Shown here one piece after another: positions 28,648-36,881 of a DNA stretch of 64,000 bases. Source of the stretch: Caenorhabditis elegans (Eukaryota; Nematoda; Chromadorea; Rhabditida; Rhabditidae); contig NC_003283.11 in NCBI RefSeq assembly GCF_000002985.6, forward strand, positions 10,106,001 to 10,170,000, in the 5' to 3' direction. Each line of letters starts with the position of its first letter. Position 1 is the first letter of the stretch. The notes below the pieces were generated by a model. It saw only the letters and a list, made by a program, of their open reading frames with translations. It was not told the DNA's origin and searched no databases. Made by a program: the position numbers and the translations under genes.

Positions 28648-31600
28648 ATGCTAGGAGCTCTTTTAAAGTCAATCAATATACCTATCAGCCGACGCGCAAT
28701 GTCTACACTCTACCATACCTGTGACAAAATCGAGCAACGAATCATTTGGATCGACTGTGAAATGACAGGCCTGGACGTTGAAAAGCAGGTTAGTTTTTTG
28801 TATTTTTTAAGAACTTTGTTAATCGATAAAACTTTTTCAGACACTCTGTGAGATTGCTTTGATCGTGACAGACTCAGAATTGAATACAATTGCGACTGGG
28901 CCAGATATTGTTATTCATCAGCCAAAAGAAGTTCTTGACAACATGGAAGAATGGCCAAGAAATACGTTTCATGAAAATGGTTTAATGGAAAAAATAATTG
29001 CAAGCAAGTACTCAATGGCTGATGCTGAAAACGAAGTGATCGATTTTCTCAAATTGCACGCTCTTCCCGGTAAGACAACTATTTTTCAAAAATAGAGTAG
29101 CCAATGGAATTTATTCAAAACGATAATAAACATTTATTTAGAAACTTACCCTCGAAGTTTATAAGATATAGAATTTTAAATAATAAGAAAGTTATGTAGG
29201 AGCTGAGCGTCCTTATTTTCTTTATAAATATCGGCAAATCTGCATTTTCCTCTCTTAAATCGCGTGTGTGCCACGGGTAGGTGTTTTTGAAAAAACTTTG
29301 GACATCCGATGTCGCGCAAACCTTCGTTTTTTTTTTCATTTTTGATGTGTCCAAGTTGGCAACGCTTATAGCTCAGCGCTGGATGGATGAAAATTCGAGC
29401 TCTTTTTTTTCATCTCTTCAAAAAGGCTTTTCCTACTTTTTGTTTTTTACCGTTTCTCGATCTGAGCTCATTGAGCCGAGATATTTTGAGTCAAACTCAA
29501 AAATCGCTATTTTTCCTCATTTTCCGGTGGTTTTAATTGAAGGAAAATTCGAATATTTGAGATTATTTCACGATTTTTTAGGGGTGTATACAACTCGACC
29601 AGCTCTTTCCAACGTGTATTTTGAAAAAATTCTACGACTCTTTTAAGCTATAGAAGTGGGCTCTTTAGTGTGAAATCGAAAATTACATTTTTATTGGTGT
29701 GCAAATTAGCGATTTTTGATGGTTTTTCGGCCATAAGTCGGTCAGTTTGGCACTTTTTGGGGTAAATTTTTCGAAAAACGTATTTTTCAGGAAATTGTCT
29801 CTTCAAAAATATAATTTTTTTTACAAAAAAGTCAAAAATAACTTCAGAAATCGCAAATTTCATGATTTTCTCTAAAAAATGACGTTTTTGCTGGAAAAAT
29901 AAAAAATTTTCCACTACCGAATGGGATTTTATGTTAAATTCGTAATTAGTACATAAATGCCGAATGGATGCTGAAAGCACAGCTCTCTACGACCATTTTC
30001 CACGATTTTAGTTTATTTAATTTTTGACCTCGAAATTTCAATTTCCCTCTTTTCCTGGACCAGTTTTTCACTGAAATGTGAATGTTATGTCCTAAATCTT
30101 ATTATTTTTGCTATGAGAAGCGAGACAAACAAAAAGTTTTTGGCCATGAGTTCCTCGAGCCCCGTTCCTGAAGTTGTGAGCTTCAAGCCTTGCTCAGGAA
30201 GCTCAAAAGTTCATTCTTGAACAATTTTCAAATTTTAAATGCTATCATATTCTCCTTTTAACGCTGATTTCAAATATATATTTTTCTTTTTCCAATTCCT
30301 ATTATGAGCTGAGTTACAGCGTTTTCAAGTTTCAGCAACGCCCGCCCGCCCCCTCTTTCCTCCTTCCTCTCCACAGAGTCTCCAGCGATGCATAGGGAGG
30401 CTGTAATATGGTCTCTAATTACTGTTACAGGATCACATATATATATATTTTACGACATATCTCTGGATAGAAGAACAATAGACATTGCCACATTTGTTTT
30501 GGTAAGAGGTCCCAATGGGCTGTAAAACAGTCTATAATATCCACCTTTCTTCCTGCAAGAATCTAAATTATAGGCAGAGCAGTCCGTAGGCCTGCTATGT
30601 CAGTAGGCTTTCACTGCCGGGTCAGAGCGCCGCAGGCGCTCTAAATCTAAATTGTGTACTGCAGGGAGACAATAAATATTTTTAAAACAGTAAAAACAGT
30701 ACGACTCAATCATTAAGTGCAAGCAGAAAACATACAAAAATGTTTTACCCGGTGTGGGGTCGAACCCAGGGGGCACCCACCCAGCTGCCCCACAGACCAA
30801 CCCTCTACCACTTGTCCATGGCGCGCGCGCCGCCACACACTCTGCGTGCGCGCCCCTCCTCTTTCACAGCAGCCGACGCCTGTGCAGGACCTTGCACACC
30901 TCTCCTCCCCTCCCCCTTCCTGCTCCGCGAGCCCGCCCCTCCTCAAACTTCAATCGCTTATATCTCCGCTCATAGTTGTGATAGAGACTTCGTTCTTTGA
31001 GCAATCGATCCCAAATTTCAAGGAGATCACGAATAACCCCAACACAAGTTCGAGGCGAAGCCGAGAACCTGCGCAAGCTACCTTTTCGGGCATCCCCATT
31101 CCCGAAGGGCTGGCGCGGCTTGCCACGGGTAGGTGTTTTTGAAAAAACTTTGGACATCCGATGTCGCGCAAACCTTCGTTTTTTTTTTCATTTTTGATGT
31201 GTCCAAGTTGGCAACGCTTATAGCTCAGCGCTGGATGGATGAAAATTCGAGCTCTTTTTTTTCATCTCTTCAAAAAGGCTTTTCCTACTTTTTGTTTTTT
31301 ACCGTTTCTCGATCTGAGCTCATTGAGCCGAGATATTTTGAGTCAAACTCAAAAATCGCTATTTTTCCTCATTTTCCGGTGGTTTTAATTGAAAGAAAAT
31401 TCGAATATTTGAGATTATTTCACGATTTTTTAGGGGTGTATACAACTCGACCAGCTCTTTCCAACGTGTATTTTGAAAAAATTCTACGACTCTTTTAAGC
31501 TATAGAAGTGGGCTCTTTAGTGTGAAATCGAAAATTGCATGTTCCCCCCTTTGTTTTTTTGGGCGCAATCCTCAAACCACCGCTTCGTGCGCTGTTCTCT

Positions 31601-34600
31601 TTCACAAATCTTGGGTTTTGAGGTAAAAGTATTGTTGAGTAAGCTTCTGGCTACATTTTAAAGTAAATTTTTTTCCAAAAAAGTTTGTTTTTCATTCTGA
31701 AAATCGAGCCAGAAAAAATGTTGTCAAAAAAATGAGGTTTTTGCCTTAAAAATAAAAATTTTTCCACTATCAATCGGGTTTTTATACTAAATTCGTAATA
31801 AGTACATAAATACCGAATGGATGCTGAAAGCACAGCTCTCTACGACCATTTTCCACGATTTAGTTTATTTAATTTTTGACCTCGAATTTTCAGTTTCCCT
31901 CTTTTCCTGGACCGGTTTTTTACTGAAATGTGAATTTTATGCCCTAAATCTTATTATTTTTGCTATGAGAAGCGAGACAAACCAAAAGTTTTTGGTCATG
32001 AGTTCCTCGAGCCGCGTTCCTGAAGTTGTAGGCTTCAAGCTTTGCTCAGGAAGCTGAAAAGTTCATTCTTGACCAATTTTCAAATTTTCAAATGCTATAA
32101 TATTCTCCTTTTAACGCTGATTTCAAATATATATTTTTCTTTTTCCAATTCTTATTATGAGCGGAGTTACGGCGCTTTCAAGTTTCAGCAACGCCCGCCC
32201 GCCCCCTCTTTCCTCCTTCCTCTCCACAGAGTCTCCAGCGATGCATAGGGAGGCTGTAATATGGTCTCTAATTACTGTTACAGGATCACATATATATATT
32301 TTACGACATATCTCTGGATAGAAGAACAATAGACATTGCCACATTTGTTTTGGTAAGAGGTCCCAATGGGCTGTAAAACAGTCTATAATATCCACCTTTC
32401 TTCCTGCAAGAATCTAAATTATAGGCAGAGCAGTCCGTAGGCCTGCTATGTCAGTAGGCTTTCACTGCCGGGTCAGAGCGCCTGCGGCGCTCTGAATCTA
32501 AATTATAGGCAGAGCAGGCCGAAGGCCTGCTATGCCAGTAGGCTTTAGCTGCCGGGTCAGAGCGCCGCAGGCGCTCTAAATCTAAATTGTGTACTGCAGG
32601 GAGACAATAAATATTTTTAAAACAGTAAAAACAGTACGACTCAATCATTAAGTGCAAGCAGAAAACATACAAAAATGTTTTACCCGGTGTGGGGTCGAAC
32701 CCAGGGGGCACCCACCCAGCTGCCCCACAGACCAACCCTCTACCACTTGTCCATGGCGCGCGCGCCGCCACACACTCTGCGAGCGCGCCCCTCCTCTTTC
32801 ACAGCAGCCGACGCCTGTGCAGGACCTTGCACACCTCTCCTCCCCTCCCCCTTCCTGCTCCGCGAGCCCGCCCCTCCTCAAACTTCAATCGCTTATATCT
32901 CCGCTCATAGTTGTGATAGAGACTTCGTTCTTTGAGCAATCGATCCCAAATTTCAAGGAGATCACGAATAACCCCAACACAAGTTCGAGGCGAAGCCGAG
33001 AACCTGCGCAAGCTACCTTTTCGGGCATCCCCATTCCCGAAGGGCTGGCGCGGCTTGCCGCGCTAGTCTGCCTTCCCTTCTACATTAAATCCCAATGTTG
33101 CAAGGTTGTCCATTTTTGTCGAAAAAATAAAAGTAGGGCAACTTTTCGACACATGATGTCCAAAAAACATGTAATGGTACTTTGAGAGTTTATAGCTCAG
33201 CGGGGAGTGGCCCGAAAATTTTGATTTTTGTTTCTCCCCCTTTCAAAAATCTGTCCCAGTATGGTCATCAAAACGGGGTTGCACAATTTTGCTCCGGGAG
33301 CCCACGGGAGTCGGAAAACTGAAGCTACTTCATTTTGGTGGATGTGTTAGTACTGGCAAAAAACCACTTTTAATTGATGCAAAATTCGAGTTTTTCTTGG
33401 ATCTTTTCAAAACTTGACACATAGTTAGGCCTGACGGAGCCCGATTTTTTGAGCCATAATTCAAAATATTTGACCTACTTTCGAAAATGTAGGCCATCAT
33501 TAAAGTTTTCGAAAAACTAAAAAGATGAACATTTATTTAATCGACGTGAAAAACTGCATTGCCTCCTTCTCTCTCTCTTGGTTCGCTCATTGATGTGAGT
33601 TGGATTATTTTCATTTCTTACTTTTTCACGTGAACATTTTTATTTAATTTTTTGAACAAAAAAATATTTTTAAGAAAACTTTACACAAACTCAAACAATT
33701 GTATTTTCCCTGCTCCGTCCTGGCCCGTTCTTGGAGCAATCAATAGCTAATCAAGTGTTGCTTCTTTTAACATTATCAAAATTTAAAATGGTCGTAACTC
33801 AGTCAGTTGAGGTCCAAAATGATCCAAATTTTTTCCAGCTTACCAACTTAACCTACTGCGAAGCCTAGCGCACTGTGTGCGCTAGTCTGCCTCTTCCTAT
33901 ATTAAATCCTGAAATTGCATTCTTGACAGAAATAAAAAATAAGGGCATGTTTTCGACATGGGGTGTCCCGAGAAATGTGACTGCACTTTGAGAGCTTATA
34001 TCTTGGCTTAGGGTTGGCGGTTTTTTGAGCAATTTGTTTCAATAGCTTACAAAGATAGCGCCTTCCATCGTCATCATTGTGGGGGGCGCTTTTGGGAAGG
34101 CTAAAACACTGATTTGGGCGGGATTCTGGAGTATGGTCGAAATGGATGTATTCTTTGTACTGACGAATTTCATGTTTTTTCAGCCCCAAATCTTCCGTTT
34201 TTCTGACATTTGGTTCCAATTTGTGCGCAAGAGAGAACTTCGTATTTCCAATTTTTTGAAACTATTTTGAAAAAAATTGGCCCACTTTCCAAAATGTAGG
34301 CCATCATTCAATTTTTGCAAAATCAAAAAGATTGATTAAACGTGAAAAACTTTTCTACCACTCTCTCTCTTTCTCTATTTTTGGTGATGAATTCGATAAT
34401 TTTCATTTCTTATTTTTAATAACGTGAGGAAAACTCAATTTTTAAGACTTTTCGAGATTTTTACTTTTTCCCTAATCTAATTGAGGGCCGCACTTTTTGA
34501 ACATGTTGGCTACTTTTAACCTGACTTCCAGCAGGACAGGCTGGAGGCCTGCAATGCTATTGTTTTTCAGTCAAACCCAAAAATCAGGGATTAGGGCCGC

Positions 34601-36881
34601 CTTCTTACTCTTTGAAACGTTAGGCCTTTTCTATCCCTACTCCCAGCAGAGCAGGCTGGAGGCCTTCTCTGAGAGGTATGTTTCTATAACTACGTATGTT
34701 TTTGGAAAGGTAATGAAAAAGGTCACCTAGGTCAGTTAACCGGATTGAGGGCCGGAGGCCCGAATACACAAAAGTATTGGACAGCCGTTAAGCCTATACT
34801 GAGCCTAAAAACTCGAGTTGAGGGCCGCAGGCCCGAATACACGAAGAAGTGTTGGAGATCCGTCAAGCCTATTTTTAGCATAATAATTCAGTTCGAGTGT
34901 CGCAAGCCCAAATAGACGCAGAAGCGTTGGACAACTTTTAGGCCTATTCTGAGCCCAATAATTCATGTTGAGGGCCGCAGGCCCGAATACACATAGAAGC
35001 GTTGGACAACTGTTAAGCCTATTTTAAGCAAAAAATTCGAAAAGTGGAAATTTTTATTTCTAAAATTAATATTAAACTAAATTTGGCCGGTCTTGACAAA
35101 CTTCAGCACATTTACTTGGCATTTACTCAACACTTGACTAAACTTTAATAAAGCGAATTATTCTTGAGTTACTCTACGCCGAACCAAACTGCGAAGCCTA
35201 GCAAATCTCCGAAACTATTTTGAAAAAAATTGGCCCACTATCCAAAATGTAGGCCATCATTCAATTTTTGCAAAATCAAAAAGATTGATTAAACGTGAAA
35301 AACTTTTCTACCACTCTCTCTCTTTCTCTATTTTTGGTGATGAATTCGATAATTTTCATTTCTTATTTTTAATAACGTGAGGAAAACTCAATTTTGAAGA
35401 CTTTTCGAGATTTTTACTTTTTCCCTAATCTAATTGAGGGCCGCACTTTTTGAACATGTTGGCTACTTTTAACACTGATTTGAGCGGGATTCTGGAGTAT
35501 GGTCGAAATGGATGTATTCTTTGTACTGAAGAGTTTTATATTTTTCAGTCCCAAACGTGCAGTTTTTGTGTCAGTTGGTTCCAATTTGTGCGCAAGAGAG
35601 AACTTTGTATTACCAATTTTTTGAAACTATTTTGAAGAAAATTGGTCCATTTTCCAAAATGTAGGCCATCATTCAAATTTTGCAAAATTAAAAAGATGGA
35701 TTAACCGTGAAAAACTTTCCTACCACTCTCTCTCCCTCTCTATTTTGGGGATGAATTCGATCATTTTCATTTCTTATTTTTATAACGTGAGGAGAATTTA
35801 ATTTTTAAGATATTTCGAGATTTCTACTTTATTTTAATCCTATTGAAAATCGCACAAGGGGTGTGCGGCAAATTTGCCAAAATTGCCGAGCTCGACAAAT
35901 TTTGAACTTTGCCGCACACGTAAAAAATTTGGCAGTGCAATTTTGACAAAAACTATTGGTCTACAAAAGTTTTGTAAAATGGCACAAAATTGAGTTATAG
36001 TGATGGTTAATCAAAATTTTGAGATTTGCCGCACACCCCTGGACCGCACTATTCGAAAATTTTAACCTCACTTCCAGCTGGGCAGGCCGGAGGCCTGCGA
36101 TGCTATTGTATTTCACTCAAACCCAAAAAGCCTTCTTACACTTAGAAACTTTAAGCCATTTCTATCCCTACTCCCAGCAGAGCAGGCCGGAGGCCTCCTA
36201 TGAGACTACGTCTGTTTTTGAAAAGGCCAGTTAATCCGGATTGAGGGCCGCAGGCCCGAATACACATAGAAGTGTTGGACAATCGTTAAACCTACTCTAA
36301 GCCCAATAAATCAGGATGAGTGCCGCAGGCCCGAAAACACTTAAAAAAGACCCAGAAAAAATATTATCTTCAAATGGCCATGGCTCAGTCAATTTTGGTT
36401 AAAAAAGATCCAAATTTTCCCCAGTTTACCAACTTGATCTACTGCGAAGCCTAGCGCGCTTGACGCGCTAGTCATTATTGTTACTAATTTATGATTCATC
36501 TAACTTACAACACATCTTACTTGTTTGAAACAATTTGTAAAATCAACAGTGAAACACTTTAAGCGTTTATGATATTAATTTTATAAGTTTCCTTGATTTT
36601 AATGATACATAATTGTAGGTAAAAGCCCGATTGCCGGAAATTCCATTTATATGGATCGTCTTTTCATCAAGAAGTACATGCCAAAGCTCGATAAGTTTGC
36701 TCACTACAGATGTATAGATGTCTCAACTATCAAAGGACTTGTACAGAGATGGTATCCTGATTATAAACATCCAAAAAAACAGTGTACCCACCGTGCATTC
36801 GACGATATTATGGAGTCAATTGCTGAATTGAAAAACTACAGAGAAAGCATTTTCGTGAAATCTACTGCGTCGTCATTTTAA
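28648..36881 (+). CDS. Oligoribonuclease (Orn/REXO2), 210 aa
   Basis: Three exons: 28648-28788, 28841-29069, 36619-36881. This DEDDh 3'-5' exonuclease degrades nano-RNAs in mitochondria and cytosol. Visible motifs: IIWIDCEMTGLD (Exo I with catalytic D and E), GNSIYMDRLFIKKYMPKL (Exo II Asp), and CTHRAFDDIMESIAELKNYR (Exo III His and Asp). The N-terminus before MSTLYHTCDKIEQ is basic and may be a mitochondrial presequence; a second start at that internal Met would give the cytosolic form. Length is normal. The remarkable part is intron 2, 7.55 kb long, of which about 7.2 kb is a Helitron-like array; removing it would leave an intron of about 316 bp. Confidence 0.93.
30756..30818 (-). promoter_or_regulatory. 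tRNA-like pol III A and B boxes, copy 1
   Basis: On the minus strand TGGACAAGTGG (30818-30808) matches the A box at 10 of 11 positions and GGTTCGACCCC (30766-30756) matches the B box, 41 bases apart as in tRNA genes. The flanks do not fold into acceptor or T stems, so this is a tRNA-derived (SINE-like) promoter rather than a tRNA. Confidence 0.5.
32691..32753 (-). promoter_or_regulatory. tRNA-like pol III A and B boxes, copy 2
   Basis: The same A box (32753-32743) and B box (32701-32691) with unchanged spacing as in copy 1, within the second large direct repeat. Confidence 0.5.
33067..33885 (+). mobile_element. Helitron-like element H2 (819 bp)
   Basis: Starts TCTGCCTTCCCTTCTACATT directly after the CTAG of H1 and ends GCGAAGCCTAGCGCACTGTG plus TGCGCTAG, with hairpin CTAGCGCAC-TGT-GTGCGCTAG. 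It is followed directly by the TC of H3. Non-coding. Its 5' and 3' ends match those of H3, which supports both boundaries. Confidence 0.75.
34258..35855 (+). repeat. Three copies of a ~250-bp internal block of H3
   Basis: Copies at about 34258-34520, 35210-35471 and 35625-35855 share AAACTATTTTGAA at the start, AAAATGTAGGCCATCATTCA, a CTCTCTCT tract, and TAACGTGAGGA...TTTTCGAGATTT. The first two are nearly identical; the third is more diverged. Confidence 0.75.
34741..35035 (+). repeat. Minisatellite, ~73-bp unit, four copies
   Basis: Each unit has TTGAGGGCCGCAGGCCCGAA, then ACAC..AGAAG.GTTGGACA and GTTAAGCCTATTCTGAGCC with differences. One further unit and part of another occur at about 36238-36340, separated from the array by the later blocks. 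GGGCCGCAGGCCC is itself a short palindrome. Confidence 0.75.
35857..36040. mobile_element. Small TIR element (MITE, 184 bp) nested in H3
   Basis: The ends are AGGGGTGTGCGGCAAAT and its reverse complement ATTTGCCGCACACCCCT. The interior has TTGCCGAGCTCGACAAATTT. It interrupts the H3 sequence ...AAATCGCAC / GGACCGCACT..., so it inserted after H3 formed. Confidence 0.7.

Follow-up and report, generated by a model that had tools for sequence, protein, structure and literature searches.

Stacked, non-canonical Helitron-like elements in an intron of a Caenorhabditis elegans oligoribonuclease homologue were probably brought together by separate joining events

The second intron of an oligoribonuclease homologue in Caenorhabditis elegans contains a stack of non-autonomous, non-canonical Helitron-like elements, which was probably built by separate joining events and not inserted as one concatemer. 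The stack lies in a stretch of 64,000 nucleotides (C5:10106001-10170000, contig NC_003283.11), hereafter the window, in which positions are counted from the first base; the genome searched comprised 100,286,401 bp in 7 contigs. The interrupted gene occupies 28648-36881 of the forward strand, with exons at 28648-28788, 28841-29069, and 36619-36881, a start codon picked by eye, and a translation that is open across the three exons. In a phmmer search against PDB its protein gave a best E value of 5e-54, which identified it as an oligoribonuclease (REXO2-like) homologue and agreed with the original prediction of a nuclease gene as the host. Intron 2 (29070-36618, forward strand, GT/AG boundaries) is 7,549 bp long. 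Without the 7,233-bp insert at 29239-36471 its length is 316 bp, as had been predicted from the growth of an intron of about that size.

The insert had been described as three head-to-tail Helitron-like elements without spacers, each carrying a GC-rich hairpin at its 3' end. The head-to-tail arrangement was supported. CTAG touches TC at 33066/33067 and at 33885/33886, the outer ends read ...GGCAAA/TCTGC at 29239 on the left and ...GCGCTAG/TCATT at 36471/36472 on the right, and all three 3' ends fold into hairpins of -9.1 to -10.0 kcal/mol. The count of three elements had to be given up. Only the boundaries drawn for the middle element, H2, enclose a complete unit, while H1 consists of two fused units and H3 of a family A unit, an A fragment, and a 5'-truncated family B unit. 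The insert is composed of five units, two of them without a 3' tip and two without a 5' end, and one fragment, all on the forward strand.

The first H1-family unit, H1a (29239-31124), begins with TCTGCATTTTCC, and related 5' starts are found at other loci. It is fused to the second, H1b (31121-33066), at 31121-31124, where the two units overlap by the 4 nt TGCC. Of the distal arm of the terminal hairpin, as folded, H1a retains only two bases, so that most of this arm and the CTAG are gone at the fusion. H1b lacks the first 30 bp of the family and ends in a hairpin with CTAG (33045-33066; DNA fold -9.1 kcal/mol), the stem of which reaches the last base of the CTAG. H1a and H1b were 90.1% identical across 1395 aligned positions, with an identity of about 99% in the last ~565. 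An unbroken junction between two H1 units at C3:11966959 may show the state of this fusion before the deletion. H2 (33067-33885) is a complete unit of 819 bp running from TCTGCCTTCCC to GTGCGCTAG, and its terminal hairpin (33865-33885; -9.8 kcal/mol) has a 9-bp stem with CTAG in both arms. Full-length H2 copies elsewhere were 99% (C4:11762703) and 98% (C2:14763003) identical to it.

The family A unit behind H2 (33886-35212) includes a 75-bp tandem repeat of about 4 copies (34745-35038). It was 98% identical to solo copies such as C3:8813231, which end in CTAGCAAATCTCCGATTTGCTAG, and is complete but for most of the distal arm of the terminal hairpin, stopping two bases into this arm. The A fragment (35211-35481) corresponds to A positions 373-642, is 98.5% identical to 34258-34527, and overlaps the A unit by GA (35211-35212) and the family B unit by 11 nt. 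The B unit (35471-36471) misses about 218 bp at its 5' end and terminates in a hairpin with an 8-bp stem and CTAG in both arms (36451-36471; -10.0 kcal/mol), directly before the host TC, the target dinucleotide, at 36472-36473. Solo copies of both families are common, A at about 1.1-1.3 kb and B at about 1.23-1.25 kb, and the B copies at other loci measure 1.18-1.25 kb. Within the B unit, 35861-35919 matches itself on the opposite strand; this inverted repeat inside B has words resembling GGCAAATTTGCC and may be one more small insertion. One long fixed element spanning the junctions was considered and rejected: among the matches listed, neither H3 at full length nor the array as a whole appeared a second time, although pairs of H2 with A and of H2 with B did recur. 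The array gave no strict match to two three-site patterns of heat shock elements.

The ends of these families resemble those of Helitrons in part. All starts of H1, H2, A, B, and X, a further family, carry a terminal TC, and the 3' ends of H1/X, H2, A, and B carry a terminal CTAG, a form of the CTRR of Helitrons. In H1b, H2, A, and B the terminal stem extends to the final base of the element instead of lying 10-12 nt from the end. At host junctions, defined as those at which no listed start follows, the 3' flanking base was T in 35 of 35 cases and the flanking dinucleotide was TC in 33 of 35, against a share of 6% for TC among the dinucleotides of the window; in three of the 33 TC cases the element ends as CTA/TC. 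The count covered ends whose flank could be read and that abut no further element, namely 18 of 28 A ends, 13 of 22 B ends, and 4 of 15 H1/X ends, and it left out one such B end, C2:867058, which is followed by TC. The 5' flanking base was A in 17, T in 10, C in 3, and G in 1 of 31 cases. The outer flanks had been read as the A and T of a Helitron target, which was too loose, since the 3' flank is nearly always TC and the 5' flank is A at only 17 of 31 sites. The target is N^TC. The elements sit as TC...TC, which is compatible with an untouched target or with a 2-bp duplication.

Because of the N^TC target and of a hairpin that takes in the terminal CTAG, the families are non-canonical Helitron-like elements. 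Canonical Helitrons of the Helitron1 type, as presented in the accessible parts of PMC4067079 and PMC5148889, likewise have a 5' TC, a 3' CTAG, a GC-rich 3' hairpin, and a T after the 3' end. They show no clear target duplication, with which the TC...TC arrangement may agree, but their target is A^T, and their hairpin lies about 10-12 nt inside the 3' end (PMC5148889), whereas in the families of the array it runs to the CTAG. Helitron2/Helentron elements are characterised by asymmetric or subterminal inverted repeats and a T-rich target, and their TT preference is not matched by the TC target either. The C. elegans Helitrons of Repbase (Helitron1_CE, HelitronY), compared by description from the available text of PMC6927752, belong to the same genome, and some C. 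elegans Helitrons are described in a portion of PMC4595182 as carrying satellites.

Exact junctions recur throughout the genome. The junction motif CGCTAGTCTGCC was found 22 times in the 100-Mb genome, compared with once for a reversed-pattern control. When end coordinates were gathered by pattern and then compared for adjacency, 23 exact junctions were obtained, mostly between distinguishable families. The 3' end of H2 was directly followed by an A or B unit, beginning with its 5' TC, in 10 of 10 exact cases and in 10 of 11 overall, the eleventh end (C2:862442, one mismatch) being followed by CCATTG. A listed start was abutted by 10 of 15 H1/X ends (H2 in 4 cases, A/B in 4, and H1 in 2). One of the others, at C2:12778836, is of H1 type and meets TCTGCCTTCTTCC, the TCTGCC start of a family outside the list, and was counted as a miss; another TC follows the remaining four. 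The corresponding figures were 2 of 28 for A ends and 1 of 22 for B ends, and the difference between H1/H2/X (20/26) and A/B (3/50) gave a Fisher P of 2.7e-10.

Viewed from the starts, a listed end stood directly before 15 of 49 A/B units, 5 of 10 H2 units, and 3 of 8 H1 units. Of the 10 H2 loci, 5 have unlisted (host) sequence upstream, 4 have H1, and one has A. Pattern hits with 3 mismatches (1 of 50 A/B starts and 3 of 14 H2 ends) or with 2-3 mismatches (5 of 33 A ends) were dropped from the adjacency comparison, and two H1 starts with a variant spelling (C2:14761067 and C3:5635994) were added by hand. The adjacency counts are lower bounds, because starts of unlisted families would be missed.

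Several other arrangements were seen in the genome. CTAG/TCTGCC junctions with other, unnamed Helitron-like families occur at C5:16325539, C3:6663239, and C2:12778836. A subtype of H2 carries a repeat-rich internal insert at the same position in four copies (C1:5639628-5641381, C2:14765009-14766530, C4:13737955-13739383, and C4:15503391-15502381), and this insert is about 0.6-0.9 kb long in the C1 and C2 copies and in that at C4:13737955-13739383. At C2:14761067-14767839 there is a stack of five units in the order H1, H2, A, H2', A. The two A units of this stack are mutual nearest relatives among 34 compared, which suggests local conversion or a joint origin.

The histories of H2 and of D, the A or B unit directly behind it, were then compared; they would be expected to agree if the two travelled as a pair. 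The pairwise distance of H2 was at most 4.0% in 38 of 45 pairs, while D distances ranged from 1.4 to 21.3%. Two H2 copies, C3a and C4c, align poorly owing to internal inserts or deletions, and C3a is involved in 6 of the 7 pairs above 4%. H2 copies only 0.3-0.5% apart precede D units that are 15-16% apart; the copies at C1:11726870 and C3:12007165, for example, differ by 0.3% and their D units by 16%. A Mantel comparison of H2 with D gave r of -0.003 (P 0.50) for 10 loci and -0.144 for the 8 loci with cleaner H2 alignments. Each of the three subtypes of H2 (full-length, internally deleted, and insert-carrying) is found in front of A as well as of B. In a tree of 33 A/B units, 12 of them behind H2 or X, 10 label changes were required against a shuffled mean of 10.0, and at least 4 changes were forced by well-supported branches; X_C6 and units not available at full length were left out of this tree, among them the A units behind X at C2:2712701 and behind B at C3:392197.

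In their first ~100 bases, the D units behind H2 represent 5 of the 6 main 5' haplotypes of solo copies, as judged by eye. The haplotype GTTTTCGACATG was found in 4 of 10 units behind H2 and in 2 of 21 solos, an excess that hints at some inheritance of the joined state. These distances partly reflect recombination, since A and B are mosaics. The comparison nevertheless provides good evidence for several separate joinings of H2 to A/B, part of which recombination among A/B copies could imitate. The absence of correlation between H2 and D, together with the scatter of D units among the solos, speaks against concatemers and favours separate joining events at the 5' ends of residents.

The relative age of the partners was estimated from their divergence. 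At 9 of 10 loci, D was farther from its nearest neighbour than H2 was, even though more comparators were available for D; at the remaining locus, C4c, the H2 alignment is poor, and its H2 lies 0.7% from C1b over 402 positions. D exceeded H2 in the frequency of private substitutions at only 7 of 10 loci, and two of the three exceptions were poor H2 alignments. Across four arrays of the order H1, H2, D, H2 was the least diverged unit in 6 of 6 BLAST comparisons, with the H1 of C4 compared over only 108-250 positions; under MAFFT, the order of H2 and D was reversed in the C5-C1 pair (3.9% vs 1.6%). The upstream H1 copies were also more diverged than H2, and H1 therefore need not be the last arrival. 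The simplest reading of these sequence comparisons would be that A/B units are the older residents and that young H2 copies arrived at their 5' TC, with host sequence, H1, or A upstream. The successive insertion suggested in the original prediction was supported, but the site it proposed, the T after the 3' CTAG of an earlier copy, appears to be the less likely side, as every one of the 10 exact H2 ends adjoins the start of an A or B element.

The same final sequence would be produced if A/B elements homed to the TC that directly follows an H2 end (or an H1 or X end), and an insertion at GT after the 3' end of the resident is one reading of a maize pair in the accessible part of PMC2267711. 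For this to be the case, however, every one of the 10 exact H2 residents must have received an insertion, and yet 34 of 49 A/B starts are not preceded by a listed end. G before TC is rare at host sites (1/31), and by nearest-neighbour distance D looks older than H2 at all but one locus, which makes insertion from this side distinctly improbable. A composite transposon deserves somewhat more weight, although we still regard it as unlikely: H2 would have been joined to A or B once or a few times and have moved as a pair with its terminator bypassed, the A/B half being exchanged later by recombination or template switching. Exact H2 3' ends are indeed never found away from A/B, mosaicism is visible in the A/B copies, each D unit of the C2 array has the other as its nearest neighbour, and one D haplotype is more frequent behind H2 than among solo copies. 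For Helraiser, read-through beyond the 3' end was shown experimentally in the sections of PMC4778049 consulted, where it occurs without the hairpin, and maize Helitrons with several termini were proposed to arise from nested ones in the available text of PMC3288121. Against a composite stand the nearly identical H2 copies with strongly different D units, the pairing of every H2 subtype with both A and B, and the intact hairpin of H2. In addition, D haplotypes differ within about the first 75 bp, and therefore nearly every copy would need a switch very near the junction.

It is highly improbable that the array entered as a tandem multimer, made when replication of one circular intermediate continued beyond its end. 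Perfect head-to-tail CTAG/TC junctions do form in the joined circles of Helraiser (PMC4778049, same sections), and H1a and H1b belong to one family, with about 99% identity at the 3' ends. But the neighbours belong to different families (H1, H2, A, and B), by which a concatemer is contradicted for the order H1b, H2, A in the window, and H1a and H1b differ by 10% over their 1395 aligned positions and are not near-identical units. With neighbours that are unlike or 10% diverged, and with uncorrelated histories of H2 and D, the rolling-circle read-through that had been offered as the second route is disfavoured.

The source of the Rep protein was sought by a profile search of the genome with PF14214, which gave 13 matches at 7 loci. 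At the PF14214 loci examined on C2 and C6, no Rep-encoding element with matching ends or target was found. For the C2 elements, the 3' end was located in three of four cases sought. These elements (e.g., C2:1969838) end in ...GGCGCGTGCGAACGGCTGG, with CTGG and a hairpin 10 nt from the end, and are flanked by TC, TT, and TA, thus by TC in one of three, which indicated that they follow a plain T target, unlike the window families. They have the canonical hairpin spacing and a CTGG end, whereas the array families have CTAG and a stem to the last base. An A/B-type start 8.6 kb upstream of the Rep at C6, considered as the end of an autonomous partner, proved to be part of a B copy. Rep-encoding Helitron copies at C2:1966061, 1973832, and 1982243 lie on one strand at a spacing of 7.8 and 8.4 kb. 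They were rejected as a Helitron array, and since the one repeat unit read (7,771 bp) contains no CTAG/TC junction, they are probably a segmental tandem duplication.

Separate joining, which we favour, has to accommodate the exact junctions, their recurrence, the family asymmetry, the TC target, and the non-correlation of H2 with its partner. We propose that the 3' CTAG end of an element joins in front of a TC dinucleotide. The elements themselves begin with TC, and therefore the 5' end of a resident satisfies the N^TC target; it would be a ready-made site, exactly before which newcomers could stack without a spacer. H2 is the strongest case of this, with all 10 exact ends in that position. 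The left end of the resident is also the presumed site of Rep binding and nicking, and from HUH chemistry a Rep-bound or nicked left end might be the preferred acceptor for the 3' end of another element. We infer that the site of attack is the 5' end of the resident, rather than the 3' side of the other element, and that Rep binding there would be the cause. The asymmetry between H1/H2/X as upstream and A/B as downstream partners may reflect terminator strength or Rep affinity. A more tentative extension is that the left, Rep-binding end of other Helitron-like elements might be the only landing site that H2 can use. In intron 2, insertion would have come before fusion: deletions after stacking, with breakpoints inside terminal hairpins, presumably fused H1a to H1b and the A unit to the A fragment, and the fragment and B could have been joined within shared sequence.

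Adjacent Helitrons have been described in other organisms. In the accessible text of PMC2267711, two unlike maize elements meet at an exact CTAG/TC junction and are read as consecutive insertions; that is one case, in which the authors leave undecided the side that was hit, compared with 23 junctions and a strong family polarity here. The maize Helitrons covered by the available portion of PMC3288121 show a preference for inserting near other Helitrons and several termini per element, but there it is a matter of proximity and nesting, whereas here specific families are joined exactly end to end. Head-to-tail junctions and insertions next to another Helitron are likewise described for Myotis in the parts of PMC4778049 and PMC5876387 available, where tandem arrays are cited as support for rolling-circle transposition, while the neighbours in C. 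elegans are mostly of different families. The Metarhizium and Fusarium examples in the relevant section of PMC5148889 are single cases, one lying 2 bp upstream and not exactly adjoining, in contrast to the recurrent and exact junctions here. Among the titles and abstracts listed in literature searches, which covered full-text terms of mostly open-access papers, none reported obligate 5'-end stacking in C. elegans. Tandem Helitrons are known, and polar, apparently obligate stacking is apparently the new part; for the C. elegans genome, this concerns the number of junctions, their polarity, and the apparent exclusivity of H2.

The few cases from maize, bats, and fungi, as far as the available texts describe them, left two questions open: whether tandem Helitrons form as rolling-circle multimers or accumulate through repeated insertion, and from which side a new copy arrives. 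With 23 exact junctions in the genome of a model organism, the question of stacking becomes testable with existing strain genomes. If the more tentative view of H2 is correct, polar stacks would keep its new insertions out of host sequence, and an element confined to the ends of others would represent an unusual form of self-targeting in a rolling-circle transposon system.
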